A DNA stretch of 64,000 bases, from NCBI RefSeq assembly GCF_000971155.1, contig NZ_BBLX01000006.1, positions 62,001 to 126,000 of the forward strand, in the 5' to 3' direction. Below are positions 3,684-58,081 of the stretch, piece by piece (the stretch's first letter is position 1; the number at the start of each line of letters is the position of its first letter). Below the pieces are notes generated by a model that worked only from the letters and a program-made list of their open reading frames with translations, searched no databases and was not told where the DNA came from. The translations under genes and the position numbers were made by a program. The stretch comes from Demequina maris. Its GTDB lineage: Bacteria > Actinomycetota > Actinomycetes > Actinomycetales > Demequinaceae.

Positions 3684-5327
3684 CTACCTGACCTCCGGGA
3701 TCATGTCGATCGCGCCGCACGGGCACTCCTCGGCGCAGATGCCGCAGCCCTTGCAGTAGTCGTAGTCGATCTCGTAGCGCATCCCCGGGCCCAACTTCTT
3801 GATCGCGTCGTCGGGGCACATGCCGAAGCAGTTGTCGCACTCGAAGCACGAGCCGCACGACATGCAGCGCCGCGCCTCGAACACCGCGTGTTCGGCGTCG
3901 AGCCCGGCCAGCACCTCCTCGAAGCCCGTCACACGGCGCGCCGCCTCGAGCTCGGCGCGGTGCTGCTTGGGAGCGTCGGAGTAGTACCAGGGCTGCAGCC
4001 GCTCGGCGGTGGCCTCACGCTGCACCGGCTCGGCCGGCAGCACCCGCGCCGCGAGCCACGCGTCCACCGCCTTCGCCGCGCGGGCCCCGCGCCCGATCGC
4101 GTACGTCGCCGTGCGCGAGCCGGGCGAGACGTCGCCCGCCGCGAACACCCCGTCGCGGCCGGTCATGAGCGTGGTGGGATCCACCTGGACCACGCCGTCC
4201 GCCACGACCACCTCGGGCACGTCGCCGAGCAACGTGAGGTCGGCATCCTGCCCGACCGCGAGCATCACGGTGTCCGCGTCGAGCTCCTCGAACACCCCGG
4301 TCCCGTGCGGCCGCCCGTCCTCGTCGAGCTCCATCCGCTCGATCGTGATCGTCTGCCCCTCGACCTGGGAGATGGTCGACAGCCACTGCACGCGCACGCC
4401 CTCGCCGACCGCGTCCTCGAGCTCCGTCGGGTGGGCCGGCATCTGCTCGCGCGTGCGCCGGTAGACGACTACCGCCTCGGAGGCACCGAGCCGTCGCGCG
4501 GTGCGGGCCGCGTCCATCGCGGTGTTGCCGCCGCCGTAGACCGCGACGCGGCGCCCGAGCAGCGGCGCGTGCCCCGAGGCGACGTCCCTCAGCACGTCGA
4601 TCGCGTCGACGATCTTCGACGCCGCCCCCGCGGGGATGTCGACGTGGTGCGCCACGCCGGCGCCCACCGTCAGCACGACGGCGTCGAACTCCGCCTGCGC
4701 ATCGTCCAGCGAGGTCACCGGCGTGGAGCACTCGATCCGCACGCCCGTGTCCTCGATGCGGCGGATCTCCGCCGCGAGCACGTCGCGCGGCAGCCGGTAC
4801 GCGGGGATGCCGTAGCGCATCATGCCGCCGGGTTCGGCGGCGGCCTCCCGGACCACCACCTCGTGACCGAGCTGGCGCACGTGGTAGGCGGCGGATAGCC
4901 CCGCCGGCCCCGAGCCCACCACCAGCACGCGACGGCCGGACGATGCGGCGGGCGCCGGCAGCGGCCAGCCGCGCTCGAGCGCGGTGTCGCCCAGGAAGCG
5001 CTCGACCGCGTTGATGCCCACCTCCTCGTCCACGTCCGTGCGGTTGCAGGCCGTCTGGCAGGGGTGATAGCAGATGCGTCCCATGACCGCGGGGAACGGG
5101 TTCGCGGCGACGAGCCGGCGCCACGCCGTCTCGAAGCCCGCCTCGCCCTCCTGCGTGGAGCCGAGCCAGCCGCGGATGTCCTCGCCCGACGGGCACCCGA
5201 GCGAGCACGGGGGAGCGAGCTCGACGTAGACGGGCCGCTCGGTGCGCCACGTGCCCGTGTGGTACGCGAGCGACGTGGCCGGACCGGTCGACAGGCCGAG
5301 CGTCGGAGGGGCGTCGTGGCTGGTCAT
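3684..5327 (-). CDS. GltD-like NAD(P)-linked flavoprotein fused to a ferredoxin domain (oxidoreductase subunit)
   Basis: A 547-residue fusion. An N-terminal cysteine-rich helical domain (C41, C45, C86, C90, C94: CSLGC and CYHPCQTAC) resembles the cluster-binding domain of the glutamate synthase small subunit. An FAD site (GSGPAG, about 138-143) and a second dinucleotide motif (VYGGGNTAMD) follow, then a C-terminal ferredoxin segment from about residue 486 with CMSCGSCFECDNC and CKGCGICAEEC. It is the last gene of the por operon and overlaps the beta-subunit gene by ATGA at 5324-5327. It probably passes electrons from the oxidoreductase iron-sulfur chain to NAD(P). It could instead be an independent ferredoxin:NAD(P) reductase; the operon position favours a complex subunit. 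Confidence 0.82.
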   Translation of the reverse strand: MTSHDAPPTLGLSTGPATSLAYHTGTWRTERPVYVELAPPCSLGCPSGEDIRGWLGSTQEGEAGFETAWRRLVAANPFPAVMGRICYHPCQTACNRTDVDEEVGINAVERFLGDTALERGWPLPAPAASSGRRVLVVGSGPAGLSAAYHVRQLGHEVVVREAAAEPGGMMRYGIPAYRLPRDVLAAEIRRIEDTGVRIECSTPVTSLDDAQAEFDAVVLTVGAGVAHHVDIPAGAASKIVDAIDVLRDVASGHAPLLGRRVAVYGGGNTAMDAARTARRLGASEAVVVYRRTREQMPAHPTELEDAVGEGVRVQWLSTISQVEGQTITIERMELDEDGRPHGTGVFEELDADTVMLAVGQDADLTLLGDVPEVVVADGVVQVDPTTLMTGRDGVFAAGDVSPGSRTATYAIGRGARAAKAVDAWLAARVLPAEPVQREATAERLQPWYYSDAPKQHRAELEAARRVTGFEEVLAGLDAEHAVFEARRCMSCGSCFECDNCFGMCPDDAIKKLGPGMRYEIDYDYCKGCGICAEECPCGAIDMIPEVR

Positions 5328-6319
5328 GAGCGCTCTCCCAGGAGGTCGTAGCGGCGGATGTTGGCGTCGGCGAGCGCGCGCCACCGCGCCAGCGCGTCCT
5401 CGCCGCCGGGCTTGAACAGGTGCGCGAAGCGCGCCTGCGGACGCAGGTACTCCTCGACGTCGGCGCGCTCGCGGATGCGCTGCACGTCGGTGAGCTCGCC
5501 CGCGCGCGCCTCGACCACGGGGAAGATCCCCGACTGGACGGCGGCCCGCGACAGCGCGATCGACTGCGACGAGGACGAGCCCCACCCGACCGGGCACGGC
5601 ACCAGCACGTGCAGGTAGCGCGCGCCCCGGATGGACATCGCAGTGCGCACCTTGTGCTCGAGGTCGCGCAGGTCCGCCACCGTCGCCGAGGCGACGTACG
5701 GGATCTCGTGCGCCATCGCGATCTTCACCATCGACTTGCCCTGCCCGAAGGCCTGACCGGGGCTGCGCCCGACCGCCGGGGTGGTCGCGGTGCGGGCCGA
5801 TGCGGGGGTCGCCGACGACCGCTGCACGCCGGTGTTCATGTAGCCCTGGTTGTCGTAGCAGACGTAGAGCACGTCATCGTTGCGCTCGAACATGCCCGAG
5901 ACCGCCGCGAGGCCGATGTCCACGGTCCCGCCGTCGCCGCCCTGGGCGAGGACGCGCACGTCGTCGCGACCCTGCGCGTGCAGCGACGCCGCGATCCCGG
6001 TCGCCACGGCGGCGGCGTTGGCGAACAGCGAGTGGATCCACGGCGGCTTCCACGCGCTCTCGGGGTACAGCGTCGAGAACACCTCGAGGCAGCCGGTCGC
6101 GTTCGCGACCACCAGCTTGCCGTCGGCCGCCTCGACCGCGGTGTCCATGACCCACCGCGCGGCGAGCGCCTCGGCGCAGCCCTGGCATGCGCGGTGCCCC
6201 TTGGTGAGGGACGACGGCCGGTCCGCGTGCGACTGGACCGAGCGCTCCGCATCGTCCAGCAGCCGCCCGCCGACCGCGAGCGTGCCGGTCTGCAGGAACG
6301 GGATGTGCACCGTGGTCAT
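5324..6319 (-). CDS. porB: 2-oxoacid (pyruvate):ferredoxin oxidoreductase, beta (TPP) subunit
   Basis: A 331-residue TPP-binding subunit. CQGC (C45, C48), Cys77 (ATGCLE) and a late Cys (VPCPVGWG) are the four ligands of the proximal [4Fe-4S] cluster. The TPP/Mg motif is GGDGG at about 127-131 with Asn157 (CYDNQGY). With the alpha and gamma subunits it converts a 2-oxoacid plus CoA to acyl-CoA and CO2 and reduces ferredoxin. The 4-base ATGA overlaps with both neighbours (5324-5327 and 6316-6319) indicate translational coupling. Pyruvate is the likeliest substrate by similarity; 2-oxoisovalerate or phenylglyoxylate cannot be excluded. Confidence 0.88.
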   Translation of the reverse strand: MTTVHIPFLQTGTLAVGGRLLDDAERSVQSHADRPSSLTKGHRACQGCAEALAARWVMDTAVEAADGKLVVANATGCLEVFSTLYPESAWKPPWIHSLFANAAAVATGIAASLHAQGRDDVRVLAQGGDGGTVDIGLAAVSGMFERNDDVLYVCYDNQGYMNTGVQRSSATPASARTATTPAVGRSPGQAFGQGKSMVKIAMAHEIPYVASATVADLRDLEHKVRTAMSIRGARYLHVLVPCPVGWGSSSSQSIALSRAAVQSGIFPVVEARAGELTDVQRIRERADVEEYLRPQARFAHLFKPGGEDALARWRALADANIRRYDLLGERS

Positions 6320-7545
6320 CGCGCCACCTCCGTCGCACCGGCGGCCGGCGTGGGTACGCCACCCTCCTTGAGGTCGAGGAACTCGAGCCTCCCCAGCTCG
6401 CCGTCGAGCGCCATGCGCACCGCCTCCTGCAGCGACGCCTCGAGGATGGGCCGACCGCCCAGCCCGGCGACCACCGAGTGCAGCCGCGAGCGGGTGCCGG
6501 CGAGCGCGCGCCCCACGCAGCCGGTGAGCACGCCGCCCGAGCCCAGCTCGAGGGCCCGGTCGATCACCATGACGTGCCGCGAGTCGCCGATAGCCTCGCG
6601 CAGCGCGTCGCCCGGGAACGGCCGGAACGACGAGATGCCGACCAGCCGCACGGGGATCCCCGCCGCGCGCATCGGCTCGAGCGCGGCCTGGAGGGTGCCG
6701 ATCACCGAGCCCATCGCCACCACGACCAGGTCGTCGGACGATGCGGGCGGCGCCATCCGGTCGCGGTCCAGCGTGTCCGGGTCGTAGCGGGCGACGAGCC
6801 CGCCCGCCTCGCGCCCGAAGGCCTCGCGGAAGCGGTCCGACCACGACGCGATCACGCCGGTCGCGTCGAGGAAGCGCAGGTGCTGGAGGTACTTGGTCTC
6901 CGTGAAGGACTCGGGCCCGGCCATCGTGCCGATGGTCGTCGGGTTCTGGATGTCGAGCGCCTGCGTGGGCCGGTACGGCGGGAGGAACGCGTCGATCTGC
7001 TCCGCGGTGGGGAGCTCGACCACGTCGGACGCGTGGGTGAGCACGAAGCCGTCCATGCACACCATCGCGGGCATGCCGAGCTCCTCCGCGGCGGCGAACG
7101 CGATGACGTGGAGGTCGGCGGCCTCCTGGTTGTCGGCGGCGAAGAGCTGCAGCCATCCCGAGTCGCGCATCGCCATGGCGTCGGAGTGGTCGTTCCAGAT
7201 GTTGATGGGCGCGCCCACCGCGCGGTTGGCGACCGTCATGACGATCGGCAGGCCCATGCCGGCGGCGTTGTAGACCGCCTCGGCCATGTAGAGCAGGCCC
7301 TGCGACGCGGTCGCGGTGTAGGCGCGCGAGCCGCCGGCGGAGGCGCCGATCGACACCGACATCGCCGAGAACTCGGACTCCACGTTGACGTACTCGCATT
7401 GTGCGAGCTCGCCCGTGCGGGCCATCACGGACAGCGCCTCGACGATGTGCGTCTGCGGGGAGATCGGGTACGCGCACACCACGCCTGGCCGGCAGCGGGC
7501 CACGGTCCGGGCGACCGCCTGGGAGCCCTCGAGCACCTCGCGCAT
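6316..7545 (-). CDS. porA: 2-oxoacid (pyruvate):ferredoxin oxidoreductase, alpha subunit
   Basis: A 409-residue PorA-type subunit: an N-terminal pyrimidine-binding TPP-family domain (YPISPQTHIVE near residue 26, then EYVNVESEFSAMS, the expected Glu region) and a C-terminal transketolase-C-like domain (VVVAMGSVIGT onward). It pairs with the beta subunit to hold TPP at the interface. GGAGG lies just ahead of ATG 7545, one base beyond the stop of the gamma subunit gene. Length and motif order are standard. The operon gives this aerobic-looking actinobacterium a CoA- and ferredoxin-dependent alternative to the AceE pyruvate dehydrogenase encoded at 34.8-37.5 kb. Confidence 0.9.
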   Translation of the reverse strand: MREVLEGSQAVARTVARCRPGVVCAYPISPQTHIVEALSVMARTGELAQCEYVNVESEFSAMSVSIGASAGGSRAYTATASQGLLYMAEAVYNAAGMGLPIVMTVANRAVGAPINIWNDHSDAMAMRDSGWLQLFAADNQEAADLHVIAFAAAEELGMPAMVCMDGFVLTHASDVVELPTAEQIDAFLPPYRPTQALDIQNPTTIGTMAGPESFTETKYLQHLRFLDATGVIASWSDRFREAFGREAGGLVARYDPDTLDRDRMAPPASSDDLVVVAMGSVIGTLQAALEPMRAAGIPVRLVGISSFRPFPGDALREAIGDSRHVMVIDRALELGSGGVLTGCVGRALAGTRSRLHSVVAGLGGRPILEASLQEAVRMALDGELGRLEFLDLKEGGVPTPAAGATEVAR

Positions 7546-12668: not shown

Positions 12669-14041
12669 CCGCCCAGCCGCTGTCCCGCGTCGCCGCGGGC
12701 CTGGGGACGCCGCCGCCGCGCATCGTCCACCTGGGCCTCGGCGCGTTCCACCGTGCCCATCAGGCCTGGTACACCGCGCAGGCGGACGATGCGGTGGGGT
12801 GGGGGATCGCCGCCTTCACCGGCCGCTCGCCCCGCGAGGCCGAGGCGCTGACCGCGCAGGAGTGCCTCTACACGGTCGCCGCGCGCGGAGCCGACGGCGA
12901 CGAGGTCGAGGTGATCGGCAGCATCGTCGAGGCGCACGACGGCGCAGACCTGGGCACGCTTCGCGACCTCGTCGCGCGGCCCGAGGTCGCCGTCGTCACC
13001 CTCACCGTCACGGAGGCGGGCTACCGGCTGCTCCCCGACGGCGCCCCGGACCTCGACGACGCCGCCATGGCCGCGGACCTCGCCGTGCTGCGCGCACGGC
13101 TGGGGGAGCCCGTCACGCCGCTCGGACGGCTCGTCGTCGCGCTGGACGCGCGCCGCCGTGCCGGCGCCGGGCCGATCGCCGTGGTGCCGTGCGACAACGT
13201 CCCCGGCAACGGACCGTGGGTCCGCACCGGCGTCCTGGCGCTCGCCGCGGCGGCGGACGATGCGCTGGCCGGCTGGGTCGAGGACCACGTCTCCTTCGTG
13301 TCGACCTCCGTCGACCGCATCACCCCGCGGCGCGCGGCCGGCGACGAGCTGCTGGCGCGAGGGGCGGGATGGATCGACGGCTCGCCGATCGTCACCGAGC
13401 CCTTCGCCGACTGGATCCTCAGCGGCGAGTTCCCCGCCGGGCGGCCCGCGTGGGAGACCGCCGGCGCGCGCGTCGTCGACGACATCGAGCCCTTCGAGCA
13501 CCGCAAGCTGTGGATGCTCAACGGCGCGCACTCGGTGCTCGCCTCGCTCGGGCGCCTGCGCGGCCACGCGACGGTCGCCGACGCGATCGCCGACGCCGTG
13601 TGCCGCGAGCTCGTCGAGGACGTGTGGGACGCCGCCGCGCGGCACCTGCCCGCGGACGTCGACGCGGCCGCGTACCGGGTGGCGCTCGTCGAGCGCTTCG
13701 CCAACCCGCGCATCGTCCACCGCCTCGACCAGATCGCCGCGGACTCCTCCGTGAAGCTCGCGGCCCGCATCGCCCCCGTCGCCCGCCTCGAGCTCGCCGC
13801 CGGCGGAGACGCGCTGCCCGCCGCGGCCGCCCTCGGCGCGTGGATCGGCGCGGTCCGCCGCTGCGCGCCGGTGCCGGACGCACGCGAGCGTCAGCTCGGC
13901 GACGCGCTGCTGTCCACCGACCCCGTCCGTGCCCTCGTGGGCGTCGTCGACCCCGACCTCGCCTCCCACCCCCAGTTCGTGGCGGAGGTCCGCATCCGTG
14001 CGGCCGCCCTCGCCGACGTCCCGACCACCGTCGCGCCGTAG
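12665..14041 (+). CDS. uxuB: D-fructuronate reductase (mannitol dehydrogenase / UxuB family)
   Basis: A 458-residue polyol-type long-chain dehydrogenase. The N-terminal Rossmann segment is IVHLGLGAFHRAHQ. The catalytic signature KLWMLNGAH (K-x4-N-x2-H) is that of the mannitol dehydrogenase family. It reduces D-fructuronate to D-mannonate with NAD(P)H. The GTG start at 12665 overlaps the uxaC stop. Tagaturonate or mannitol could be alternative substrates, but isomerase, mannonate dehydratase and GUS in the same operon favour fructuronate. Two copies of GGACGATGCG and two of its complement fall inside this gene or at its beginning. Confidence 0.9.
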   Translation: MTAQPLSRVAAGLGTPPPRIVHLGLGAFHRAHQAWYTAQADDAVGWGIAAFTGRSPREAEALTAQECLYTVAARGADGDEVEVIGSIVEAHDGADLGTLRDLVARPEVAVVTLTVTEAGYRLLPDGAPDLDDAAMAADLAVLRARLGEPVTPLGRLVVALDARRRAGAGPIAVVPCDNVPGNGPWVRTGVLALAAAADDALAGWVEDHVSFVSTSVDRITPRRAAGDELLARGAGWIDGSPIVTEPFADWILSGEFPAGRPAWETAGARVVDDIEPFEHRKLWMLNGAHSVLASLGRLRGHATVADAIADAVCRELVEDVWDAAARHLPADVDAAAYRVALVERFANPRIVHRLDQIAADSSVKLAARIAPVARLELAAGGDALPAAAALGAWIGAVRRCAPVPDARERQLGDALLSTDPVRALVGVVDPDLASHPQFVAEVRIRAAALADVPTTVAP

Positions 14042-18725: not shown

Positions 18726-19227
18726 GACGCCGCTGATCGTCGTGATGGGCCCGACCGCCTGCGGCAAGTCCACGGTCGGGGAGGCCCTCGCGGCCACGCT
18801 CGGTGTGCCGTTCGTCGACGGCGATGCGCTCCACCCGGAGACCAATGTCGCGAAGATGGCCGCGGGCGTGCCGCTCGACGACGACGACCGGTGGCCGTGG
18901 CTCGACCGCGTCGGCGCGAAGCTGGACGATGCGCGGTCCGGGGGAGGCGCCGTGGTCGCCTGCAGCGCCCTCAAGCGGGCGTACCGGGACCGCATCCGGG
19001 CGGCGGCGCCCGGCGCATCGTTCCTCGAGCTGGTCCTCACGCCCGAGGAGGCGACCCGCCGGTCCTCCTCGCGCGTCGACCACTTCATGCCCGCGTCCCT
19101 GGTCACGTCGCAGTTCGGGACCCTCGAGGTCCTGACCGCGGACGAGCGCGGGACCAGGGTCGACGCGACGCTACCCGTGACGCGCATCGTCGCCGCCGCG
19201 GTCGACGCGCTGGGCGCGGGCGCCTAG
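18715..19227 (+). CDS. gntK: Gluconokinase, GntK family
   Basis: A 170-residue P-loop kinase with Walker [10 protein letters not shown] (about 12-20), FVDGDALHP for gluconate binding and [11 protein letters not shown], all typical of thermoresistant gluconokinase. It phosphorylates D-gluconate to 6-phosphogluconate. The start overlaps the manD stop by 11 bases, so it is translated with the uronate genes. This is odd: the operon product is 2-keto-3-deoxygluconate, which normally needs a KDG kinase of the PfkB family, and none is in the window. Either gluconate is co-metabolised or the enzyme has wider specificity; the latter is speculation. Confidence 0.88.
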
Positions 19228-24006: not shown

Positions 24007-24560
24007 CGGGGCAGGGACAGCATGTACAGGTCGGAGTGCATCCACTGGCCGTCGCGCTCGATGTCGTTCTCGATCCGACGGACCAGCGACAGCCCCAGGT
24101 GCGCCATGACCTTCGCCGACGCCTTGTGCTCGGGGCGGCAGCGCGCGTGCAGCTGCTCGAGCCCGTCCTCCTCGAGGAGCGCGTCGATCACGGCACGCAC
24201 GGCCTCGGTCGCGATGCCGCGACCCCACAGGTCGCGGCGCACCACCCAGCCGAGCTCGCGGATCTCCGGCGTCGAGTCGAGCGGGCCCCGGCCCTCGCCG
24301 TACACGCCGACGCCGCCGACCACGGTCCCGGCGGGGATGCGCCCGGCGGCGCCCACCGCATCGTCCCGCAAGGTGATGGCCCACTGCGCGGGCAGGCCGG
24401 CCTCCGCGGCCTGCTCCACCCACCTCCGCGTGTCGTCCTCGCTGTTGGGTCCCCACTCGGTGAAGCGGCACACCGCGGGATCCGAGGCGTACACGTGGAC
24501 GTCTGCGGCGTCGTCGGCGGTGAACGGCCGTAGCAGGAGTCTCGCGGTCTCGACGGTCAT
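24003..24560 (-). CDS. GNAT-family N-acetyltransferase (RimJ/RimL-like)
   Basis: 185 residues starting [20 protein letters not shown], the typical beginning of RimJ/RimL-type GNATs. The acetyl-CoA pyrophosphate loop is [10 protein letters not shown] near 115-124 (Q/R-x-x-G-x-A pattern), and [13 protein letters not shown] lies near the end. It transfers acetyl from acetyl-CoA to an unknown amine or protein N-terminus. ATG 24560 is used; an in-frame start 17 codons upstream lacks a ribosome site and would run into the divergent def promoter. Coupled to nnrD by a 4-base overlap. Confidence 0.82.
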
Positions 24561-27061: not shown

Positions 27062-27100
27062 GCGCCGCGCCCCGGGGCGATCGCGCCGGGGGACGATGCG

Positions 27101-31032: not shown

Positions 31033-31943
31033 GCGGCGGTCTCCAGAAGCTCGCGGGCGGCGGCAAGGTCGTCGGGGGTCTTGAGCGCGACGGACGGGAC
31101 GCCCTTCATCGCGCGCTTGGCGAGGCCGGTGAGGACGCCGCCCGGGGCGACCTCGACGATGCCGGTGACGCCCAGCGACAGCATCGTCTCCATGCACAGG
31201 TCCCAGCGGACCGGGTTGGCGACCTGGCGGACGATGCGCGCGAGGGCGTCGGCGCCGTCGGCCACCTGGGCGCCGTCCGCGTTGGACAGCAGCACGCCGG
31301 CCGGCTCGCCGGGGGAGACCTCGGCGGCGGCGGCGTCCAGGTCCGCGACCGCGGGGATCATGTACGTGGTGTGGAACGCGCCGGCGACCTGCAGCTCGAT
31401 GACGCGGGCGCGGACCGGGGGCTCCGCGAGCAGCGCGTCGATCGCCGCCTTGGCGCCCGCGGCGACCACCTGGCCGCCGCCGTTGACGTTCGCGGGGGTG
31501 AGGCCGTGGGTCGCGAGGGCGGCCGCCACCTCGGCGGCGTCACCGCCGAGCACCGCGGCCATGGACGTCGCCTCGGACGATGCGGCGGCGCGGGCCATCG
31601 CGGCGCCGCGCACCGCGACGAGACGCATCGCGTCGGCGTCGGTGAGCACGCCCGCCAGCGCGGCCGCGCCGAGCTCGCCGACCGAGTGGCCCGCGGCGAG
31701 CGCGGGAGCGGTGCCGCCGAGCAGTGCGCGGCCCGTGGCGATCGCGGTCGCGACCAGCAGCGGCTGGGCGATGGCGGTGTCGCGGATGGTGTCCGCGTCG
31801 GACTCCGTGCCGTGGCGGACGATGTCGACGCCGGCGGCCTCCGAGAGCGAGGCGAGGGACGCGGCGACCTCGGGCAGCTCGAGCCACGGGGCGAGCATCC
31901 CGGGCGTCTGGGCACCCTGGCCGGGACAGAGAATGGCGATCAC
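31029..31943 (-). CDS. fabD: Malonyl-CoA:ACP transacylase
   Basis: 304 residues (GTG start) with PGQGAQ near the N-terminus, the nucleophile Ser87 in GHSVGE and a C-terminal catalytic His in GAFHTTYM. It loads malonate onto AcpP. It is the first structural gene of the fatty-acid operon. The 78 bases between it and the upstream regulator gene hold the likely promoter and a TTGT-N9-ACAA dyad. The ribosome site is weak (AGGCAGG, about 12 bases away). Confidence 0.94.
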   Translation of the reverse strand: MIAILCPGQGAQTPGMLAPWLELPEVAASLASLSEAAGVDIVRHGTESDADTIRDTAIAQPLLVATAIATGRALLGGTAPALAAGHSVGELGAAALAGVLTDADAMRLVAVRGAAMARAAASSEATSMAAVLGGDAAEVAAALATHGLTPANVNGGGQVVAAGAKAAIDALLAEPPVRARVIELQVAGAFHTTYMIPAVADLDAAAAEVSPGEPAGVLLSNADGAQVADGADALARIVRQVANPVRWDLCMETMLSLGVTGIVEVAPGGVLTGLAKRAMKGVPSVALKTPDDLAAARELLETAA

Positions 31944-33191: not shown

Positions 33192-33316
33192 GCGGGCCAG
33201 CGTAGCGGGCGCTTGTGGGATCGGCACAACGCGGCGGGACGCGCGGGTGGCGCGACGTGCGGGAGGTGGGCCGCCGCATCGTCCCCCCGCTGTGGCTCTC
33301 CACAACCCTCCCCTCC

Positions 33317-33497: not shown

Positions 33498-34820
33498 ATG
33501 TCGCCACGACCGCGTCCGTTGCTGGGGATGGTGCTGGGCTTGCTGCTCGGCCTGGTGACGGTGGGGCTGCTGTGGCAGCTCGGGGTGATCGATCCCGGCC
33601 GGACGGTGCTGTTCGGCGTCGTGGCGCTCGCCATGATCCTCGTCGCCGGGCTGCTGACGCGGGACCCCTCGCGCGCCCGCGGGCGCTACACGGCGGTGGT
33701 CGCGATCGCCGGCGTGCTCGGCGGCGTCGCGCTCACCGGGATCGGGGAGCTGGTGCGCCCGGGCTCCCTCTCCGACGGCTGCACCGTGGAGGCGACGGTG
33801 GGGGACACCACGGTCGCGCCGGATGGCACCGCCGCGCTCACCCCGCTCGACGTCCCGGCCGACGGCGTCGTGACGTGGACCGCGGCGTCGGAGACGCCCG
33901 TCTCCGTGACGGACCGTGTCGCCGGCGTGATGATCGGCGGCTTCGCGATCCCGATCCGCACGGTGACGTCCGAGGGCGCCCCGGAGGGGCAGGAGATGTC
34001 GGGCGAGGTGGTGGTCGCGGACGCGATCACGTGGATCACGGACCGCTCCTGGCTCGAGCCCACCGGCGTGTACCACGCGTACGGCAGCATGTCCGGGGGA
34101 TCCGTCCGGTGCGAGCTCGACGGCTACGTCAAGGTCGCGCCCGCGGGCGTCTTCGCGACGAACACGCTCAAGGTGCTGTGGATCTCGCTCGGGGTCCTGC
34201 TCCTGCTGATCGCGTGGGCGGCCTTCGCGGTGCGGAGCTCCTTCGCGCGCGCCGCGGACGACGATGCGCGGGCCCTGGAGGCCGCGGCCGCCGGCTTCGC
34301 GGCGGGCGAGGGCGCGCAGGCGTCCGCCGGTGACGGCAGGCCAGTGGACCACATCGATCCCGTGCCCGCGTGGACCCCGCCCGAGCAGCGCTCGGCCGCG
34401 CCGGCCGACGAGATCGCCACGCCACCCGCCGAGGAGGCCGTGCGACGCCGGTCCGCGTTCGCGTCACAGGGGGACGATGCGGCGGATGCCGCTGGTCCCG
34501 GCGCCGGGGCCTCGTCGGCCCCGTGGGCCGCGGACGAGCCCGCGCTCGAGGGCGCCGACGACGACATGCTTCTGGAGGAGGAGCCCGGCGAGGAGCTCGA
34601 CGAGGTCGCCGCGGAGGACGATGTGGCGGCGGAGCCGGGCGACGAGGTCGCCGAGGACGAGCCCGCGGGCGACGAGGGCGAGCCGGAGGACGACGGCGAG
34701 GAGCGCATCGTCCCCGAGGACGACGAGCCCGTCGCGGTCGACGAGCCGGCGGAGACCCCGGGGCAAGACGAAGGGCCGGAGGCCCCGTCCGAGGACGAGG
34801 GCTCCGGCCCCAGGTCGTGA
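33498..34820 (+). CDS. Membrane protein with long acidic C-terminal tail
   Basis: 440 residues, no recognised family. Two hydrophobic segments near 9-30 and 36-55 and one near 65-85 are followed by an exterior beta-rich stretch (about 90-215, VEATVGDTTVAPDG...) and another membrane segment at about 225-250. A cytoplasmic tail from about 255 to the end becomes almost purely acidic (about 345-440: many E/D, A and P). AGGAGAA precedes ATG 33498. It ends 12 bases before the convergent aceE stop. The acidic tail suggests a disordered interaction or ion-binding region; the role is unknown. Confidence 0.7.
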   Translation: MSPRPRPLLGMVLGLLLGLVTVGLLWQLGVIDPGRTVLFGVVALAMILVAGLLTRDPSRARGRYTAVVAIAGVLGGVALTGIGELVRPGSLSDGCTVEATVGDTTVAPDGTAALTPLDVPADGVVTWTAASETPVSVTDRVAGVMIGGFAIPIRTVTSEGAPEGQEMSGEVVVADAITWITDRSWLEPTGVYHAYGSMSGGSVRCELDGYVKVAPAGVFATNTLKVLWISLGVLLLLIAWAAFAVRSSFARAADDDARALEAAAAGFAAGEGAQASAGDGRPVDHIDPVPAWTPPEQRSAAPADEIATPPAEEAVRRRSAFASQGDDAADAAGPGAGASSAPWAADEPALEGADDDMLLEEEPGEELDEVAAEDDVAAEPGDEVAEDEPAGDEGEPEDDGEERIVPEDDEPVAVDEPAETPGQDEGPEAPSEDEGSGPRS

Positions 34821-39385: not shown

Positions 39386-40006
39386 ATGGACAGGGTTGCC
39401 GCAGTCATCGTCGACATCGTGCGCTCACGCGAGCTCCACGACAGGGCCGGCGCGCAGGCGGCGGTGCTCGAGGCGTTCGTGCGTGCGGAGCGCGACGCCG
39501 CGCCGCTGCGGCCCCTCGGCGCGACCGTGGGCGATGAGTTCCAGGGTGTCTACGTCGACCTCGCGGCCGCGCTCCGCGTCACCACGCTCGCCGCTCTCAT
39601 CCTGCCCGACGGCATCGAGGTCCGCGCCGGCATCGGCCTCGGCGAGGTGGTCGACGTCGACGGCGACATCTCCGACGGCAGCGCGTGGTGGCGCGCGCGG
39701 GAGGCGATCGACGAGGCGCACCGTCGCGAGGATGCGGGTCAGGCGGCGGTGCGCGCCTGGTGTGTCGGAGCCTCGGGGGACGATGCGATCATGGCCTCCG
39801 CAGTCCTGCTCCTTCGCGATCACGTCCTCAGCCGCATGAAGTCGCGCGAGCGGCGCATCGCCGCCGGGCTCATCGAGGGGCGGACCCAGGCGCAGCTCGC
39901 GGCTGTCGAGTCGATCAGCCAGGCGGCGGTGTCGCAGGCGGCGCACCGGTCGGGCGCGATCGCGCTGCGCGAGGCGCTCGAGGCGGTCGGCGGGGCGCCG
40001 CGATGA
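39386..40006 (+). CDS. satD: SatD-family protein
   Basis: 206 residues of the SatD family: VAAVIVDIVRSRELHDR near the start, then LGATVGDEFQGVYVDLAAAL and EVRAGIGLGEV, with the order and spacing of a nucleotide-cyclase-like fold. A C-terminal helix-turn-helix (QAQLAAVESISQAAVSQAAH, about 172-191) suggests DNA binding. SatD was named from a streptococcal acid-tolerance locus; its biochemistry is unsettled. It is coupled (ATGA, 40003-40006) to a membrane partner, and the palindrome just upstream suggests autoregulation through the C-terminal domain (inference). Confidence 0.8.
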   Translation: MDRVAAVIVDIVRSRELHDRAGAQAAVLEAFVRAERDAAPLRPLGATVGDEFQGVYVDLAAALRVTTLAALILPDGIEVRAGIGLGEVVDVDGDISDGSAWWRAREAIDEAHRREDAGQAAVRAWCVGASGDDAIMASAVLLLRDHVLSRMKSRERRIAAGLIEGRTQAQLAAVESISQAAVSQAAHRSGAIALREALEAVGGAPR

Positions 40007-40697: not shown

Positions 40698-40771
40698 GGG
40701 CCCTTAGCTCAGTTGGTTAGAGCACTGCGTTTACACCGCAGGTGTCGTCGGTTCGAGTCCGGCAGGGCCCA
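40698..40771 (+). tRNA. tRNA-Val, anticodon UAC
   Basis: A 74-base cloverleaf. The acceptor stem GGGCCCT (40698-40704) pairs with AGGGCCC (40764-40770); the D arm is AGCTCAGTTGGTTAGAGC; the anticodon arm CTGCG-TTTACAC-CGCAG gives anticodon TAC; the T arm contains GGTTCGAGTCC. The discriminator base is A at 40771, and CCA is not encoded (CTA follows). The next three bases are the stop codon of the convergent marR gene. Confidence 0.98.
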
Positions 40772-41236
40772 CTACCGCGCGTCGCCCCGCCCCTCGGCCG
40801 CACGCGCGGTCGCGAGCAGCGCCGTGGCAACATCGGCCGCCGTGACCAGCGGCGCATCGTCCACCCCGGCGAACAACGCTGCTAGACCCTCGAGGTGCGC
40901 GGCGGCGTGCCGGTCCCAGAACTCGCGGTGCCGCGCGGTGAGGTGCAGGCGCAGTGTGCGCGCGTCGGACGGATCGGACGCGATCCGCAGGAACCCCGCG
41001 CGCTCGAGCCGCAGCGCGAGCTGCTTCGCCGCCTGCCGGGAGGTCCCGTAGCGGTCGGCGGCCTCGCCGAGCGTGGGCGCCTCGTCGCCGAAAGTCTCGA
41101 TCGCCACGAGAAGCATCCACTGCTTGGCCGACAGCCCCGCCGGTGCGAGCATGTCGTCCAGCAGGTTCTTCCACGACTGGCTCAGCAGGAACACCGTCGC
41201 GAACAGGGTGCGCGCCGCATCGTCCCGGCCGGTCAT
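40772..41236 (-). CDS. MarR-family regulator
   Basis: 154 residues with a winged helix: AKQWMLLVAIETFGDEAPTL, then AADRYGTSRQAAKQLALRLERAGFL (recognition helix) and SDPSDARTLRLHLTARH (the D-x-R wing). It is coupled downstream of a polytopic membrane protein (ATGA, 41233-41236). A 22-bp dyad at 42113-42134 of MarR type precedes the pair and is its likely operator. Its TAG stop abuts the tRNA-Val gene. Ligand and target beyond its own operon are unknown. Confidence 0.87.
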   Translation of the reverse strand: MTGRDDAARTLFATVFLLSQSWKNLLDDMLAPAGLSAKQWMLLVAIETFGDEAPTLGEAADRYGTSRQAAKQLALRLERAGFLRIASDPSDARTLRLHLTARHREFWDRHAAAHLEGLAALFAGVDDAPLVTAADVATALLATARAAEGRGDAR

Positions 41237-42134: not shown

Positions 42135-42261
42135 TCAGCGGGTCGCGCGCGGGACGGAGGTCCCGACAACGGTTCTGGCCGCCTCGCGGCGACGTACGGC
42201 GGGACGATGCGCCTGCCGCGCTAGCCTCGAACCACGCAGGCAGATCCAGGAGGAGGCGGTC

Positions 42262-44205: not shown

Positions 44206-45018
44206 ATGACCTCCGTGGCCGATGTGATGGACGCACTCGAGAAGCGCTTCCCCCTCGATCTCGCGGAGGACTGGGACGTCAACGGGCTCTGCGTCGGCCG
44301 GCCCGGCGCTGAGGTCACGCGCGCGCTGTTCGCGGTCGACCCGACCATGGCGGTCGTGCAGGAGGCCGTCGAGGCCGGCTGCGACCTCATCGTCACCCAC
44401 CACCCGCTGCTCCTGCGCGGCGTCACCACCGTGCACGCCGGCACCCCGAAGGGCGCGGTCATCCACGCGCTCATCGAGAACGGCATCGCGCTGTACAACG
44501 CCCACACCAACGCCGACCACGCCGGCACCGGCGTCGCCGAGGCGCTCGCGGAGGTCCTCGGCGTCTCCGGCGCGCTCCCGCTCGTCCCGCTCAAGGACGA
44601 TGCGGAGCAGGGGACCGGCCGCATCGGCCGGCTCGACGCGCCCATCAGCCTGCGCGAGTTCGCCCAGCGCGCCGCCACCGTGCTGCCCGAGACGTCGCAC
44701 GGCGTGCGCGTCGCGGGCGACCTCGACGGCACCGTGCAGACCATCGCCGTCGTGGGCGGCTCGGGGGACTCGTTCCTCGCCGCCGCGAGCGAGGCGGGCG
44801 CGGACGTCTACCTCACCGCGGACCTGCGCCACCACCCCGCGTCCGACGCCCGCGAGGCCGCGCTGCTCGGCGACGGCCGCCCGTACCTCGTCGACGTCGC
44901 CCACTACGCGTCCGAGTGGACGTGGCTGGAGGCGGCTGCCGAGTACCTCGGCGACGCCACCGGCATCGACACCCTCGTCTCGACCCTCACCACCGACCCC
45001 TGGACCGCGCGCTTCTAG
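44206..45018 (+). CDS. Nif3-like dinuclear metal-centre protein
   Basis: A 270-residue Nif3/YqfO-family protein. Metal-binding stretches are VTHHPLLLRG (about 64-73), NAHTNADHA (about 98-106) and the C-terminal VDVAHYASEW. The family forms toroidal hexamers; its substrate is debated (GTP-cyclohydrolase-like or an adaptor role). It heads a row with a zinc-ribbon coiled-coil protein and a histidine phosphatase, an order common in actinobacteria. One GGACGATGCG copy (LKDDAEQ) is inside. Confidence 0.9.
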   Translation: MTSVADVMDALEKRFPLDLAEDWDVNGLCVGRPGAEVTRALFAVDPTMAVVQEAVEAGCDLIVTHHPLLLRGVTTVHAGTPKGAVIHALIENGIALYNAHTNADHAGTGVAEALAEVLGVSGALPLVPLKDDAEQGTGRIGRLDAPISLREFAQRAATVLPETSHGVRVAGDLDGTVQTIAVVGGSGDSFLAAASEAGADVYLTADLRHHPASDAREAALLGDGRPYLVDVAHYASEWTWLEAAAEYLGDATGIDTLVSTLTTDPWTARF

Positions 45019-45774: not shown

Positions 45775-46631
45775 GCGACGGGACGATGCCCGACCCGGCC
45801 GAGGAGACCCAGGTCGAGCCCGCGGTCCCGCACCACGCGCACCGCTTCGACGACGGCACCGACCTCGGCGGCGAGGCGGCGTCCGACGTGCCCGCCGCAT
45901 CGTCCCCCGCGCCGCGCGTGCAGTCGCCCTTCTCGCCCGACGAGGAGGACCTCGTCGCGCCGCTCACGCTCGTCCTCGTGCGCCACGGCGTCACCGAGAT
46001 GACGACGTCGCGACGCATGTCCGGCTCCGGCGTGCCCGGGCCGGCCCTCAGCGGACAGGGACGCGTGCAGGCCGCGAAGGCCGCGGACCTCGTCTACGGC
46101 ATGGGCCGGCGCACCTGGATGCACCTGCCCCACGTGACGCGGATCCTCGCCTCGCCGATGGTGCGCACGCAGGAGACGGCGGCCTCGGTGGGCCGCCGCA
46201 TCGGCGCGCACGTCGAGACCGAGGCGCGCATCAAGGAGGTCGACTTCGGCGCGTGGGAGGGCCTCACGGTCGCCGAGATCATCGAGCGCGACGGCGACGC
46301 CATCCACGCCTGGCGGCGGGCCGAGACGTCCGCGCCCGGCGGCGAGTCCATCGCCGAGGTGGGTGCGCGCGGCTACGCCGTCATCGAGGAGCTCGCGCGC
46401 GAGCACGCGCACCATTGCATGTCCGGCCGGGACCTGCCCCGCGGCGTCGCGCTCGTGTCGCACGCGGTCGCGATCAAGTCGATCGTGGGCGTCGCGCTCG
46501 GGATGCCCGCCTCGCACTGGGGCTCGATCTGGCCCTCGCCGGCCTCGACGTCGATCCTGCAGGTGCGGGCGCGCAAGGACGGGTCGATCGCCGAGCAGCA
46601 CGTGCTCGCGGTGGGCGTGCCGGTCGAGTAG
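45771..46631 (+). CDS. Histidine phosphatase (phosphoglycerate-mutase-like), without RNase HI domain
   Basis: 286 residues. A disordered, acidic, Pro/Ala-rich N-terminal region (about 1-60) precedes a histidine-phosphatase domain: RHG motif LVRHGVTE (about 67-74), RILASPMVRTQETA, EVDFGAWEGLT and the second catalytic His in LVSHAVAIK. In many actinobacteria the gene in this position encodes a fused RNase HI/acid phosphatase; here the RNase HI domain is missing and only a low-complexity leader is left. The start is GTG 45771, coupled to the zinc-ribbon gene; ATG 45786 is an alternative. Confidence 0.83.
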   Translation: MSDGTMPDPAEETQVEPAVPHHAHRFDDGTDLGGEAASDVPAASSPAPRVQSPFSPDEEDLVAPLTLVLVRHGVTEMTTSRRMSGSGVPGPALSGQGRVQAAKAADLVYGMGRRTWMHLPHVTRILASPMVRTQETAASVGRRIGAHVETEARIKEVDFGAWEGLTVAEIIERDGDAIHAWRRAETSAPGGESIAEVGARGYAVIEELAREHAHHCMSGRDLPRGVALVSHAVAIKSIVGVALGMPASHWGSIWPSPASTSILQVRARKDGSIAEQHVLAVGVPVE

Positions 46632-46718: not shown

Positions 46719-47741
46719 ATGACCGCATCGTCGGGGCCATGGCTCCCGCTCCTCGAGAACGTCCGCCGGTACCCGTCCCCGCACAACTCGCAGCCTATCC
46801 GGGTGCGGGTGATCGACGCGGCGCGTGCCGAGGTGTTCTACGACCTCGACCGGGGGCTGCCGGCGGAGAACTTCGGCATCCCGTTCGGCCACGTGTGCGC
46901 GGGGGTGTTCCTCGAGTCGCTGCGCGTGGTCGCCGCGGCGGCCGGGTACCGCGTCGACGAGGCGCTCGAGCTCGAGGAGATGGACTTCGACGCGACGGAC
47001 CGACTGCACCGGCTCGGCGCGGTGACGCTGGAGCCGCAGGCGCCGGGCGCGGAGGACCCGCGGGCCGCAGATGCGTTCCGCGTGCGCCGCACCAACCGCC
47101 GCCCGTACGACGACCGCGTCGTGCCCCGCGTGGACCTGGAGGAGGTCCAGGAGCTCGCCGCCGGCCACGGGCAGCGCTTCTCGTGGTCGGGCGACGCGCG
47201 GGTCGTGGCGCCGATCATCCGCATCAACCAGGAGACCCTGTTCGACGACCTCCGCAACGACGCCGTCTACGCCGAGATCATGGAGTGGCTGCGCTTCAGC
47301 GAGCACGACGCCGCCGAGCGCGGCGACGGGCTCAGCGCCGCGGCCATGCTGATGCCGGGGCCGCTGCTGCGCTTCGCGATGGGCCACCGCGGGCTGTGGC
47401 AGGCGCCGGTGATCGGCGCCGCGATCCGCGGCATGTACCTCAGGACGATGCGTGGCGTGCGGCAGCTCGCCTGGTTCGAGGGGCCCTTCGCCTGCCCGCG
47501 CGACTACGTCGAGGCCGGGCGCGTCTTCATGCGCTGCTGGCTCGAGCTGACGGCGCGGGGCGTCTCGCTTCATCCGTTCGGGACGGTGATCACGAACCCA
47601 CGGTCGCATGCGCGGTTCGTCGACATCGCGGGCGCGGACGAGTCCGACGGCCGGATGGCCTGGATGCTCGTCCGGCTCGGCTACGCCAAGACCCCACCCG
47701 TCGCCCACCGGCGCCCGCTCGAGGAGATGCTCGTCGCATGA
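46719..47741 (+). CDS. Nitroreductase-fold flavoprotein (Acg-like)
   Basis: 340 residues with two nitroreductase-like halves. The N-terminal VRRYPSPHNSQPIRVRV is the FMN-contacting opening motif of the family (S-PHNSQPW type). RRTNRRPYDDRVVP (about 122-135) and ARGVSLHPFGTV near the C-terminus match the Acg-like subgroup of actinobacteria, which includes both catalysts and flavin-storage proteins. No clear ribosome site precedes ATG 46719. The gene overlaps the next (ATGA, 47738-47741), so a joint role with the adenylating enzyme is likely. Reaction unknown. Confidence 0.75.
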   Translation: MTASSGPWLPLLENVRRYPSPHNSQPIRVRVIDAARAEVFYDLDRGLPAENFGIPFGHVCAGVFLESLRVVAAAAGYRVDEALELEEMDFDATDRLHRLGAVTLEPQAPGAEDPRAADAFRVRRTNRRPYDDRVVPRVDLEEVQELAAGHGQRFSWSGDARVVAPIIRINQETLFDDLRNDAVYAEIMEWLRFSEHDAAERGDGLSAAAMLMPGPLLRFAMGHRGLWQAPVIGAAIRGMYLRTMRGVRQLAWFEGPFACPRDYVEAGRVFMRCWLELTARGVSLHPFGTVITNPRSHARFVDIAGADESDGRMAWMLVRLGYAKTPPVAHRRPLEEMLVA

Positions 47742-52304: not shown

Positions 52305-52355
52305 CTTCTGCTCCTTTGCGAGGGACGATGCGGGGACTGGATAGCGCGGTGAGGC

Positions 52356-53533: not shown

Positions 53534-54424
53534 ATGAGCACGAACCCCGAGGTCACCGAGTTCCTGCGCTCGCGCCGCGCCCGCATCACCCCCGAGCAGT
53601 CGGGCCTGCCCGCGTACGGCGGCAACAGGCGCGTTCCCGGACTGCGCCGCGAGGAGGTCGCGATGCTCGCCGGCGTCTCCGTCGACTACTACGTGCGGCT
53701 CGAGCGCGGCAACCTGTCCGGCGCCTCCGACTCCGTGCTGGACGCGCTCGCGAACGCGCTCCAGCTCGACGAGGCCGAGCGCGACCACCTGTTCGATCTC
53801 GCGCGGGCGGCGGGCCCCGCATCGTCCCGCGCGTCGGGCCGCCGCCCGACAGGTGCCGTGCGGCCCACGATCCAGGCGATCCTCGACTCGATCACCGCCC
53901 CCGCGTGGGTGCGCAACGGCCGGCTCGACCACCTCGCGCACAACCGCGCATCGCGCGCGCTGTACGCGCCGCTGCTCGACAGCTCCGAGCGGCCCACGAA
54001 CACCGCGCGCTTCGTGTTCCTCGACGATGCCTCGCGCGAGTTCTTCGTCGACTGGGACCAGGCGACGGCCGACGTCACCGCGCTGCTGCGCATGGAGGCC
54101 GGGCGCCGGCCCACCGACAAGGGCCTCACCCAGCTGATCGGCGAGCTGTCGACGCGGTCGGAGGAGTTCCGCCGGCTGTGGGCGCGGCACGACGTCAAGT
54201 TCCACCGCTCGGGCGCGAAGCAGCTGCGGCACCCGGCGGTCGGGCGGCTCGACCTCGAATTCGAGGCGATGGAGCTGCCCTCCGACCCCGACCTCACGCT
54301 GCTCGTGTACGCGGTGACCCCCGGGTCGCCCACCGCCGACAAGCTGCAGCTGCTCGAGCACTGGGCCGACGAGCGCGAGGCCGCGGGAAGGCTCGCCGAC
54401 GTGAGCGCCGCGCCTCGCAGGTGA
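53534..54424 (+). CDS. XRE-family regulator with MmyB-like ligand domain
   Basis: 296 residues: an N-terminal XRE helix-turn-helix (RVPGLRREEVAMLAGVSVDYYVRLERG, about 33-59; key G-R-R-EVA-LAGVS-YY-RLE-G) and a C-terminal MmyB-type domain (APAWVRNGRLDHLAHNRASRALYAPLL onward) of PAS-like fold that binds a fatty-acid or other hydrophobic ligand in characterised relatives. ATG 53534 (MSTNPEVTEF) is the conserved start. It is divergent from two aldo/keto reductases, and the GGAC-N5-GTCC sites between them are its likely targets. A GCATCGTCC motif copy lies at 53817. Confidence 0.88.
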   Translation: MSTNPEVTEFLRSRRARITPEQSGLPAYGGNRRVPGLRREEVAMLAGVSVDYYVRLERGNLSGASDSVLDALANALQLDEAERDHLFDLARAAGPASSRASGRRPTGAVRPTIQAILDSITAPAWVRNGRLDHLAHNRASRALYAPLLDSSERPTNTARFVFLDDASREFFVDWDQATADVTALLRMEAGRRPTDKGLTQLIGELSTRSEEFRRLWARHDVKFHRSGAKQLRHPAVGRLDLEFEAMELPSDPDLTLLVYAVTPGSPTADKLQLLEHWADEREAAGRLADVSAAPRR

Positions 54425-55397: not shown

Positions 55398-55473
55398 CAA
55401 CCGGCGTACAGATCCCGGCTCGGCGGTGAACAGCCTGGTATTTGCGCACCAGGTCGGGACGATGCGCCGGTTG
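55398..55473. repeat. 76-bp element with 9-bp inverted ends, copy 1
   Basis: CAACCGGCG (55398-55406) and CGCCGGTTG (55465-55473) enclose 58 bases. The left interior GTACAGATCCCGGCTCG matches copy 2 (57579-57655) at most positions, while the rest differs. It also contains a GGACGATGCGC copy (55457). It is intergenic, 32 bases after the SDR stop. Confidence 0.65.
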
Positions 55474-55494: not shown

Positions 55495-56268
55495 TCAGCC
55501 CGCGATGACGAGCGTGAGCTCGTCCGGCCCCTTCGCCTTGGGGGTGAGCGCGACGTCCACGAGTGCGTCGCCGATCATCCCGGCCGCGGCGTCGGCGAGG
55601 TCGGCCGCGGTCTGGGGCCGCGCATCGTCCCTCACCAGGTGCGCCGCGAGGAGCCCGCGCGTGTGCTTGGCCATGTGGCTGACCACCGCGCGCTTGCCGT
55701 TCAGCTCGCGCTGGACGGAGACGGCGACCCAGGGGGAGTCGGCGGGGCGGTACGCGGCGACGTACGAGGCGCTGCGGCAGTCGATGACGAGGCCGCCGTC
55801 GGCGAGCGCGTCGAGCTCCGCGGGCAGGTGCTTCCTCCAGTAGGTCGCGAGCCCGCCGAGCCGGCCCAGGCTGGTGCCCATCGACAGGCGGTACGCGGGG
55901 ATGCGGTCCGCAGGGGAGACGGCGCCCCACAGAGCGGAGACGATCCGGACGCTCTCGCGCGCCTTGTCCAGGGTGGCGGCGTCCCAGTCGGCCATGCCGG
56001 CCGCGTCGTAGAGCACGCCCGTGTAGACGGTGGAAGATGCGGCGGCGGGGTTGTCCCACACGGTGCGGTTGCGCTCGACCTCCGCGGAGAGCGAGGCGCC
56101 TACGCCGAGCGCCTCCATCGCGTTGCGCTGGCCGCTGACCTTGGCGAGCGCGTCCCCCACGCGACGGCGGTGCGCCTCGAGGCCGCGGTGCGAGAGGCTG
56201 CCGAGGTCCACGGGGGAGCCGGCGGCGGGGGCGGTCTTGCCCTCGGAGGGCGGCAGCAGGATCAGCAC
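55495..56268 (-). CDS. yaaA: YaaA-family peroxide-stress protein
   Basis: 257 residues (GTG start) beginning LILLPPSEGKT, the DUF328/YaaA signature. Other family blocks are YTGVLYDAAGM, RIVSALWGAVSPADRIPAYRLSMG and SHMAKHTRGLLAAHLV. In E. coli YaaA lowers free iron and protects DNA from peroxide. It stands between two copies of the 76/77-bp repeat element, with the aminotransferase gene. The hairpin at 56305-56329 separates it from that gene. Confidence 0.9.
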   Translation of the reverse strand: MLILLPPSEGKTAPAAGSPVDLGSLSHRGLEAHRRRVGDALAKVSGQRNAMEALGVGASLSAEVERNRTVWDNPAAASSTVYTGVLYDAAGMADWDAATLDKARESVRIVSALWGAVSPADRIPAYRLSMGTSLGRLGGLATYWRKHLPAELDALADGGLVIDCRSASYVAAYRPADSPWVAVSVQRELNGKRAVVSHMAKHTRGLLAAHLVRDDARPQTAADLADAAAGMIGDALVDVALTPKAKGPDELTLVIAG

Positions 56269-57698: not shown

Positions 57699-58081
57699 GC
57701 GGATGAGCTGGCCAGGCGGCCGCGTGGCCCCCTCGGGGGTCCCGAGGAACGTCCGGGCTCCGCAGGGCAGGGTGATGGCTAACGGCCACCCGGGGTGACC
57801 CGCGGGACAGTGCCACAGAGAGAAGACCGCCTCTCCTCCTCGGAGGAGGGGTAAGGGTGAAAGGGTGAGGTAAGAGCTCACCGCGCGACTGGTGACAGGA
57901 GCGGCAAGGTAAACCCCACCCGGAGCAAGGCCAGACAGGATGCGTTCGAGGGCTGCCCGCCCGAGCATCCGGGTAGGTCGCTAGAGGCGTACGGCAACGT
58001 GCGTCGTAGATGGATGGCCGCCCCTCGTGAGCGGTGACGCGAGCGAGCGACAAAACCCGGCGTATCGGCCAGCTCATCCGC
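57699..58081 (+). ncRNA. rnpB: RNase P RNA (bacterial class A)
   Basis: The catalytic RNA that trims 5' leaders from tRNA precursors. The terminal helix P1 is formed by GCGGATGAGCTGGCC (57699-57713) and GGCCAGCTCATCCGC (58067-58081), a perfect 15-bp pairing that sets both ends. Conserved core blocks are GAGGAACGTCCGGGCTCC (about 57744-57761), ACAGAGAGAAGACCGCC (about 57813-57829), AAGGGTGAAAGGGTG with GGTAAGAGCTCACC, and AGATGGATGGCCGCC (about 58008-58022), then ACAAAACCCGGCGTATCGG before P1. Length about 383 nt, normal for actinobacteria. No coding in this stretch. Confidence 0.97.

Follow-up and report, generated by a model that had tools for sequence, protein, structure and literature searches.

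According to the accessible parts of the sources cited here, sequence-specific DNA uptake is found in two families, the Pasteurellaceae and the Neisseriaceae (2016 review, PMC5031613), and Neisseria serves as an example of the exception to unspecific uptake (2025 review, PMC12236230). From the same partial record, the neisserial DUS is ATGCCGTCTGAA (PMC5031613); it forms dialects by clade, occurs as inverted pairs at terminators in which the two DUS do not overlap, and lies both between genes and at permissive places within them (PMC3630211), and its reader in the Neisseriaceae, ComP, is a minor pilin (PMC12061091). Uptake sequences fall in reading frames for 65% of copies in H. influenzae and 35% in N. 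gonorrhoeae, with an excess in non-coding DNA (PMC1939737), while the receptor of the Pasteurellaceae USS is called unknown in the part of the source available (PMC12616744). In the actinobacterium Micrococcus luteus, natural transformation is described, in the accessible part of the report, as depending on Flp pili (PMC4322843). The open-licence literature that we searched yielded no work on uptake or competence in Demequina and, consisting mostly of abstracts, no word-based uptake system in Demequina or Actinobacteria.

We find that a ten-base word, GGACGATGCG, is scattered in very many copies over the genome of this Demequina (G000; genome labels begin with G and sampled stretches with L), and we consider it likely that it is the self-recognition word of a DUS-type natural transformation system in the genus. 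The window, which is the whole 64-kb stretch analysed here (positions 62001-126000 of contig 17), contains 31 copies (Table 1), of which 13 are read as GAC-GAT-GCG, 7 as GCA-TCG-TCC, 5 as CGC-ATC-GTC and 1 as ACG-ATG, the remaining 5 being intergenic. The window also carries a tRNA-Val(tac) (40698-40772) and a bacterial class A RNase P RNA (57704-58080).

Table 1. Copies of GGACGATGCG in the window, with the codons and residues read from each coding copy
Position	Strand	Location	Codons	Residues
4698..4707	-	coding	GAC GAT GCG	LDDA
4938..4947	+	coding	reversed GCA TCG TCC	AASS
6248..6257	-	coding	GAC GAT GCG	LDDA
6736..6745	+	coding	GCA TCG TCC	PASS
12719..12728	-	coding	CGC ATC GTC	RIVH
12784..12793	+	coding	GAC GAT GCG	ADDA
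13255..13264	+	coding	GAC GAT GCG	ADDA
13709..13718	-	coding	CGC ATC GTC	RIVH
18924..18933	+	coding	GAC GAT GCG	LDDA
24357..24366	-	coding	GAC GAT GCG	RDDA
27091..27100	+	intergenic		
31229..31238	+	coding	CGC ATC GTC	RIVR
31575..31584	+	coding	GCA TCG TCC	AASS
33275..33284	-	intergenic		
34472..34481	+	coding	GAC GAT GCG	GDDA
34704..34713	-	coding	CGC ATC GTC	RIVP
39778..39787	+	coding	GAC GAT GCG	GDDA
40853..40862	-	coding	GAC GAT GCG	VDDA
41216..41225	-	coding	GAC GAT GCG	RDDA
42202..42211	+	intergenic		
44595..44604	+	coding	GAC GAT GCG	KDDA
45896..45905	-	coding	GCA TCG TCC	AASS
47443..47452	+	coding	ACG ATG	RTMR
52323..52332	+	intergenic		
53818..53827	-	coding	GCA TCG TCC	PASS
55457..55466	+	intergenic		
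55621..55630	-	coding	GAC GAT GCG	RDDA
57429..57438	+	coding	CGC ATC GTC	RIVR
59020..59029	-	coding	GCA TCG TCC	GASS
60430..60439	+	coding	GAC GAT GCG	VDDA
62827..62836	-	coding	GCA TCG TCC	GASS

The abundance of the word is far beyond chance: the nine-base word GGACGATGC matches 34 times in the window, where 2.13 matches are expected and no more than 5 appear in any of 100 shuffles, and the whole assembly (2,966,865 bases, 2.97 Mb, in 22 contigs) holds 1,480 copies of GGACGATGCG, 751 forward and 729 reverse, against only 2 of the control, the same word read backwards. Among ten-base words of the form NNNNGATGCN, the only form counted, GGACGATGCG has 197 copies in 399 kb and the next has 36. 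A sample of 483 kb (the window, L003-L021, L042 and L062) contains 234 copies, 110 on one strand and 124 on the other, with a median gap of 1.3 kb, and the overall density is 0.48 per kb. Counts in 2-kb bins are near Poisson (mean 0.97, variance 1.02), and 10-kb bins are more variable (mean 4.85, variance 6.94; 4 of 47 empty). Positions outside the word carry at most 0.28 bit each in the flanks of the 234 copies, and flanks so nearly random show that only the word is conserved, which rules out a longer repeat, a REP or a MITE. Neighbouring copies stand in opposite orientation 129 times and in the same orientation 84 times (p=0.002; 483 kb), an excess that is present in every distance class up to 3 kb.

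The original prediction, which proposed no function for the word, had held that most coding copies are read as Asp-Asp-Ala or Ala-Ser-Ser, and this is what we find in 20 of the 26 coding copies of the window and in 116 of the 150 in a 443-kb sample (the window plus 19 stretches of the same genome; 217 copies in all), where GAC-GAT-GCG accounts for 75 copies and GCA-TCG-TCC for 41. The further claim that the motif forces rare codons inside genes describes these 116 copies well but does not extend to the other 34, which comprise 23 copies read as CGC-ATC-GTC (of the six frames, the one most expected by chance), 7 as ACG-ATG and 4 as CAT-CGT (GGA-CGA-TGC, 0); the five window copies read as CGC-ATC-GTC already show that a copy can stand in a gene without introducing a rare codon. 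The positions quoted in the prediction fall within the word or one to two bases beyond its end (59029 is the far end of 59020-59029); they were examples, and its lists omitted the Asp-Asp-Ala copies at 4698, 6248, 24357, 40853, 41216 and 55621, all on the minus strand, and the Ala-Ser-Ser copy at 6736.

The predicted enrichment of rare codons in the two tripeptides is borne out in the 443-kb sample, where GAT encodes the second Asp in 92 of 146 Asp-Asp-Ala tripeptides, against 561 of 8250 Asp codons overall (6.8%; p=4e-69), the first Asp being GAT in only 2 of 146, and where GCA encodes the Ala in 42 of 76 Ala-Ser-Ser tripeptides, against 509 of 18373 Ala codons overall (2.8%; p=7e-45). As an internal control, the residues were held the same while the neighbouring bases varied so that the word could or could not form (483 kb; background GAT 618/8956, or 6.9%, and GCA 559/19873). 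In GAC-GAY-GCG the second Asp is GAT in 83 of 94 cases after G and in 11 of 32 after another base; in GAC-GAY-GCC the figures are 2 of 5 after G and 4 of 23 otherwise; and GCA fills the first position in 45 of 49 instances of GCN-TCG-TCC, all 49 of which follow C, and in 0 of 11 instances of GCN-TCG-TCG. Because the bias falls when neighbouring bases break the word, the word and not the peptide is the main cause of the codons, and it is strongly supported that these codons are set by a word at the DNA level. The codon pattern arises as the coding-sequence trace of a genome-wide word. Uptake sequences and proteomes have reportedly been studied together by Findlay and Redfield (2009). Where the word cannot form, a residual GAT excess persists (15/55 versus 6.9%), which may be explained by one-mismatch relics of the word.

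Codon use at orthologous positions mostly agrees with this. The comparison started from 57 copies of the word in 15 stretches of nine GGACGATGCG genomes, G000 among them, and reached 471 distinct, de-duplicated orthologous positions in 40 stretches of 22 genomes. The same word was found at 37 of 173 positions within the GGACGATGCG set, and the word of another dialect at 18 of 298 positions outside it. At word-free positions that keep the residue, the Ala codon in genomes of other dialects is GCA in 6 of 52 cases (p=0.22 against a background of 891/11431) and the Asp codon is GAT in 27 of 83 (p=1e-5 against 824/5939); within the GGACGATGCG set the corresponding counts are 6/23 and 8/33. The expectation that such orthologues have the usual codons is thus confirmed for Ala, which is at background, and for Asp only to the extent that it is mostly GAC, yet GAT stays above background.

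Copies of the word are not restricted to genes. The 217 copies in 443 kb divide into 150 coding, 66 intergenic and 1 at an edge, an intergenic excess over the 13.7% of the DNA that is non-coding (p=2e-10). Genes were called with our own simple codon-usage caller, which missed some lower-GC genes, and a few copies scored as intergenic may therefore sit in uncalled genes. Intergenic copies reach 2.08 per kb between convergent genes, a value that rests on only 11 copies in 5.3 kb, and 1.15 and 1.17 per kb between divergent and tandem genes. Ten inverted pairs of the word lie within 60 bp of each other and all ten fold into hairpins; seven of them are intergenic by our gene calls, two are followed directly by TTT, and three overlap by two bases. 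Within the 483-kb sample some regions are free of the word. They include a probable 20-kb exopolysaccharide cluster of lower G+C (L020 1-20000, contig 21; two 10-kb bins, 0 copies), in which we read genes for a sugar transferase, glycosyltransferases and nucleotide-sugar and sulfotransferase-like proteins (two proteins checked by Pfam), but also 12 kb with most of the type IV pilus cluster (L062 7960-20000) and a 10.9-kb stretch whose genes look ordinary (transporters, dehydrogenases and peptidases). The G+C of L062 7960-20000 is below that of the genome.

The word differs between species of the genus. In a first survey of 39 genomes, Demequina congeners were either rich in GGACGATGCG (927-1,564 copies) or poor in it (10-123), and the single representatives of 14 further families in the order carried 12-37 copies. 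Word discovery in stretches of word-poor congeners led to related words, and gave no clear word in 60-100 kb each of G001, G003, G018 and G057. Counts of four related words over 44 Demequina genomes show that one of the four reaches 600 copies or more in 25 genomes, namely GGACGATGCG in 15 (at least 700 copies in each, for instance 1,101 in G046), GGCCGATGCG in 8, GGCCGATGCT in 1 (736 copies in G010) and GCCCGACGCT in 1 (908 in G009, with 254 in G012 and 6-52 in the other 42); in 10 of the 44 the best word has 200-599 copies, and in 9 each of the four stays below 200. Several genomes mix words, such as G022 with 927 copies of GGACGATGCG and 483 of GGCCGATGCG. When 22 genomes are placed on a protein tree, the dialects appear to go largely with the branches: the GGACGATGCG genomes cluster with the word-poor G001 and G057, the GCCCGACGCT-bearing G012 and G048, the last of which (235 copies) is sister to G006 (1,564), and three GGCCGATGCG genomes cluster as well, while GGCCGATGCT and GCCCGACGCT each occur on two separate branches. 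A count of the degenerate word GGMCGATGCK in 347 genomes of the order gave 509-1,834 copies for 24 of the 28 Demequina and 150-341 for the other four; among the 319 non-Demequina genomes, G349, from another family, had 816 and the next, a 9.4-Mb genome, 389. In G349 (stretches L158-L161), GGCCGATGCS occurs 1,448 times, against 126-338 in its 37 congeners, and this related word is perhaps an independent case.

Genes for a type IV pilus and for competence are present. Contig 22 carries pilB, pilT, pilC, pilA, pilV-like, pilW-like, pilX-like and pilD, followed by pilM, pilN and pilO, the last three named by place and resemblance. Pfam matches exceed the cut-off for pilB, pilT, pilC, pilA, the pilW-like gene and pilD, the N_methyl match of the pilV-like gene falls just under it, and the pilX-like product has no pilus family in Pfam; comEA and comEC adjoin on contig 14. 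The Pfam families over cut-off in the pilus and competence set are T2SSE, T2SSF, N_methyl, Peptidase_A24, Competence, SLBB and HHH_3, and among NCBIfam models the PilT family is over its cut-off, the PilB, ComEC and ComEA equivalog or subfamily models matching below theirs. A ComEC search among named genomes gave D. phytophila, D. gelatinilytica and D. sediminis as close matches. The pilus/secretion ATPase family T2SSE is found in 44 of 44 Demequina genomes and the ComEC domain in 43, including 8 of the 9 genomes without an abundant word, and pilB, pilT and pilC are all kept in the four low-word genomes whose pilus locus was read. The comEC frame is broken in G048 (L054), in G009 (L045) and in the word-rich, poorly complete G042, and pilB of G048 (L072) and pilC of G009 (L065) each align in two pieces. 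The split genes of G048 and G009 may reflect sequencing error or decay, and since sequencing error is possible, loss of comEC allows no conclusion on loss of the word; G009 is still rich in GCCCGACGCT.

We looked among the minor pilins for a determinant of the dialects. The pilV/W/X cassette exists as two widely differing types, and over 20 genomes (L062-L081) these do not go with the dialect, so that the cassette was rejected in this role. A fourth pilin stands alone on contig 15 (L177 1174-1596, minus strand) and has relatives in many Demequina; in 34 of the 44 genomes the best match to it is found elsewhere than at pilB, partly at low identity, these 34 including the fragmentary assembly G005 and matches, as in G015, G018 and G042, that are only 35-38% identical. 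In G014 the match stops after residue 61. Such a separate place is seen in 12 of the 15 GGACGATGCG genomes and in 7 of the 9 low-word genomes, and the presence of this orphan pilin, which does not track the word, was likewise set aside as the dialect determinant. Two cysteines are invariant in 21 aligned members (alignment A1: loci passing a start and length rule among the 28 of L177 and L180-L206, which left out L184, L189, L190, L192, L193, L205 and L206; L207 and L208 never entered). Structure prediction gave a confident pilin model (mean pLDDT 91), for which Foldseek alone returned no match with E <=0.001 and a fold comparison returned Thermus PilA4 as the best solved match (Z 9.6, rmsd 3.1 over 118 residues). 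The predicted fold is that of a pilin and nothing more specific; ComP and FimT were not among the matches listed, which excludes nothing. Since ComP is a minor pilin, the orphan pilin is a possible candidate, by analogy only, for the reader of the word.

Our results lead us to propose that DNA bearing the word would be bound at the cell surface by a type IV pilus containing a pilin that reads it, that PilT retraction would pull the bound DNA in, and that ComEA and ComEC would let one strand enter the cell, there to recombine. The word would be preferentially re-imported and would in this way accumulate in intergenic DNA and in tolerant genes, genic copies settling where the protein tolerates Asp-Asp-Ala, Ala-Ser-Ser or Arg-Ile-Val and overriding codon preference there, and related species would use other dialects of the word. 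The sequences directly show the word, with its density, distribution, dialects and effect on codons, and the presence of pilus and competence genes; dependence of uptake on the word, import through the pilus and upkeep of the word by biased uptake instead of cell-level selection are our inferences. The codon pattern itself fits biased import and cell-level selection equally and cannot tell them apart. The original prediction had read it as selection at the DNA level; that the word sets the codons stands, but "selection" is not supported as stated, because biased uptake of word-bearing DNA, a molecular drive, gives the same pattern.

Several findings count against uptake: 9 of 44 genomes have no abundant word, yet 8 of these have a ComEC match and the four whose pilus locus was read keep pilB, pilT and pilC, GGCCGATGCT and GCCCGACGCT are split between branches, some genomes mix words, neither the cassette nor the orphan pilin tracks the word, and the pilus cluster and the 10.9-kb stretch lack it. 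The word might instead be bound by a protein inside the cell with a role in organising, repairing or segregating the chromosome and be kept by cell-level selection, as the high density over most of the sampled genome and the excess of opposite neighbours, which uptake does not explain, would suggest. We regard this as unlikely, given that the word is absent from the exopolysaccharide region and that it changes between congeners and is nearly absent in several, which is hard to square with an essential site. The orientation of Chi and KOPS follows replication, so that neighbouring sites share a strand; neighbouring copies of GGACGATGCG share no orientation and hence show no polarity, and on the orientation of neighbours polar sites of this kind were rejected.

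Any drive that acts on DNA would give the same codon pattern, and the word could have been spread by some other self-favouring process, such as methylation or mutation bias, with no role in uptake. HIP1, a palindromic cyanobacterial repeat for which methylation or mutation bias is suspected, is the type case, and a HIP1-type repeat is ruled out for GGACGATGCG, which is non-palindromic by inspection. For a self-favouring process in general, the ten-base, non-palindromic form, the wide lead over the next word of its form, and the inverted pairs and dialects, which fit DUS, make this a highly improbable account. That there is no DNA word at all, and that codon-pair or peptide preference or chance produced the pattern, is scarcely credible: the residual GAT excess without the word (11/32 and 6/28 versus 6.9%) could hold a small context effect, but the internal control, in which the same residues lose the bias once the word is broken, rules out such a preference as the main cause, and the word is also present between genes and on either strand.

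Our preferred reading remains self-recognition in DNA uptake, and, as far as the literature searched shows, the Demequina word is most probably a new and independent example of a type of system already known, with dialects peculiar to it. With somewhat less confidence, we lean toward a third, independent origin of uptake words in the Actinomycetota, beside those of the Neisseriaceae and Pasteurellaceae, with Demequina dialects of its own, a related word in one species of another genus and an orphan minor pilin that possibly reads the word. If true, this would be the third case of uptake words, in a high-GC Gram-positive phylum and with dialects across dozens of sequenced congeners, and would make it possible to compare how uptake words originate, change and are recognised, and to test biased uptake against selection. 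A ten-base word that so strongly overrides codon preference also matters for gene finding and for inference from codons in these genomes.

Judged by analogy, the anatomy is that of a DUS system. As in the Neisseriaceae, a word of ten to twelve bases occurs in very many copies on both strands, inside and outside genes, with inverted pairs, clade dialects and genes for a type IV pilus, ComEA and ComEC. The Demequina system, known from sequence, differs from the neisserial one in its unrelated word (by inspection, the four Demequina words do not resemble ATGCCGTCTGAA), its high-GC actinobacterial host, its density of about 0.5 copies per kb, a ComP-like reader and a word-dependent uptake that are proposed only, and the two-base overlap of three inverted pairs. 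With the USS of the Pasteurellaceae it shares a short word in many copies that are largely genic, 150 of 217 here and 65% in the accessible account of H. influenzae, but the word is different and the Demequina flanks have no pattern. Micrococcus luteus is, like Demequina, an actinobacterium with transformation, which is shown there and proposed here; its system uses Flp pili, and the accessible part of its description (PMC4322843) makes no mention of a self word, unlike the system that we propose for Demequina.
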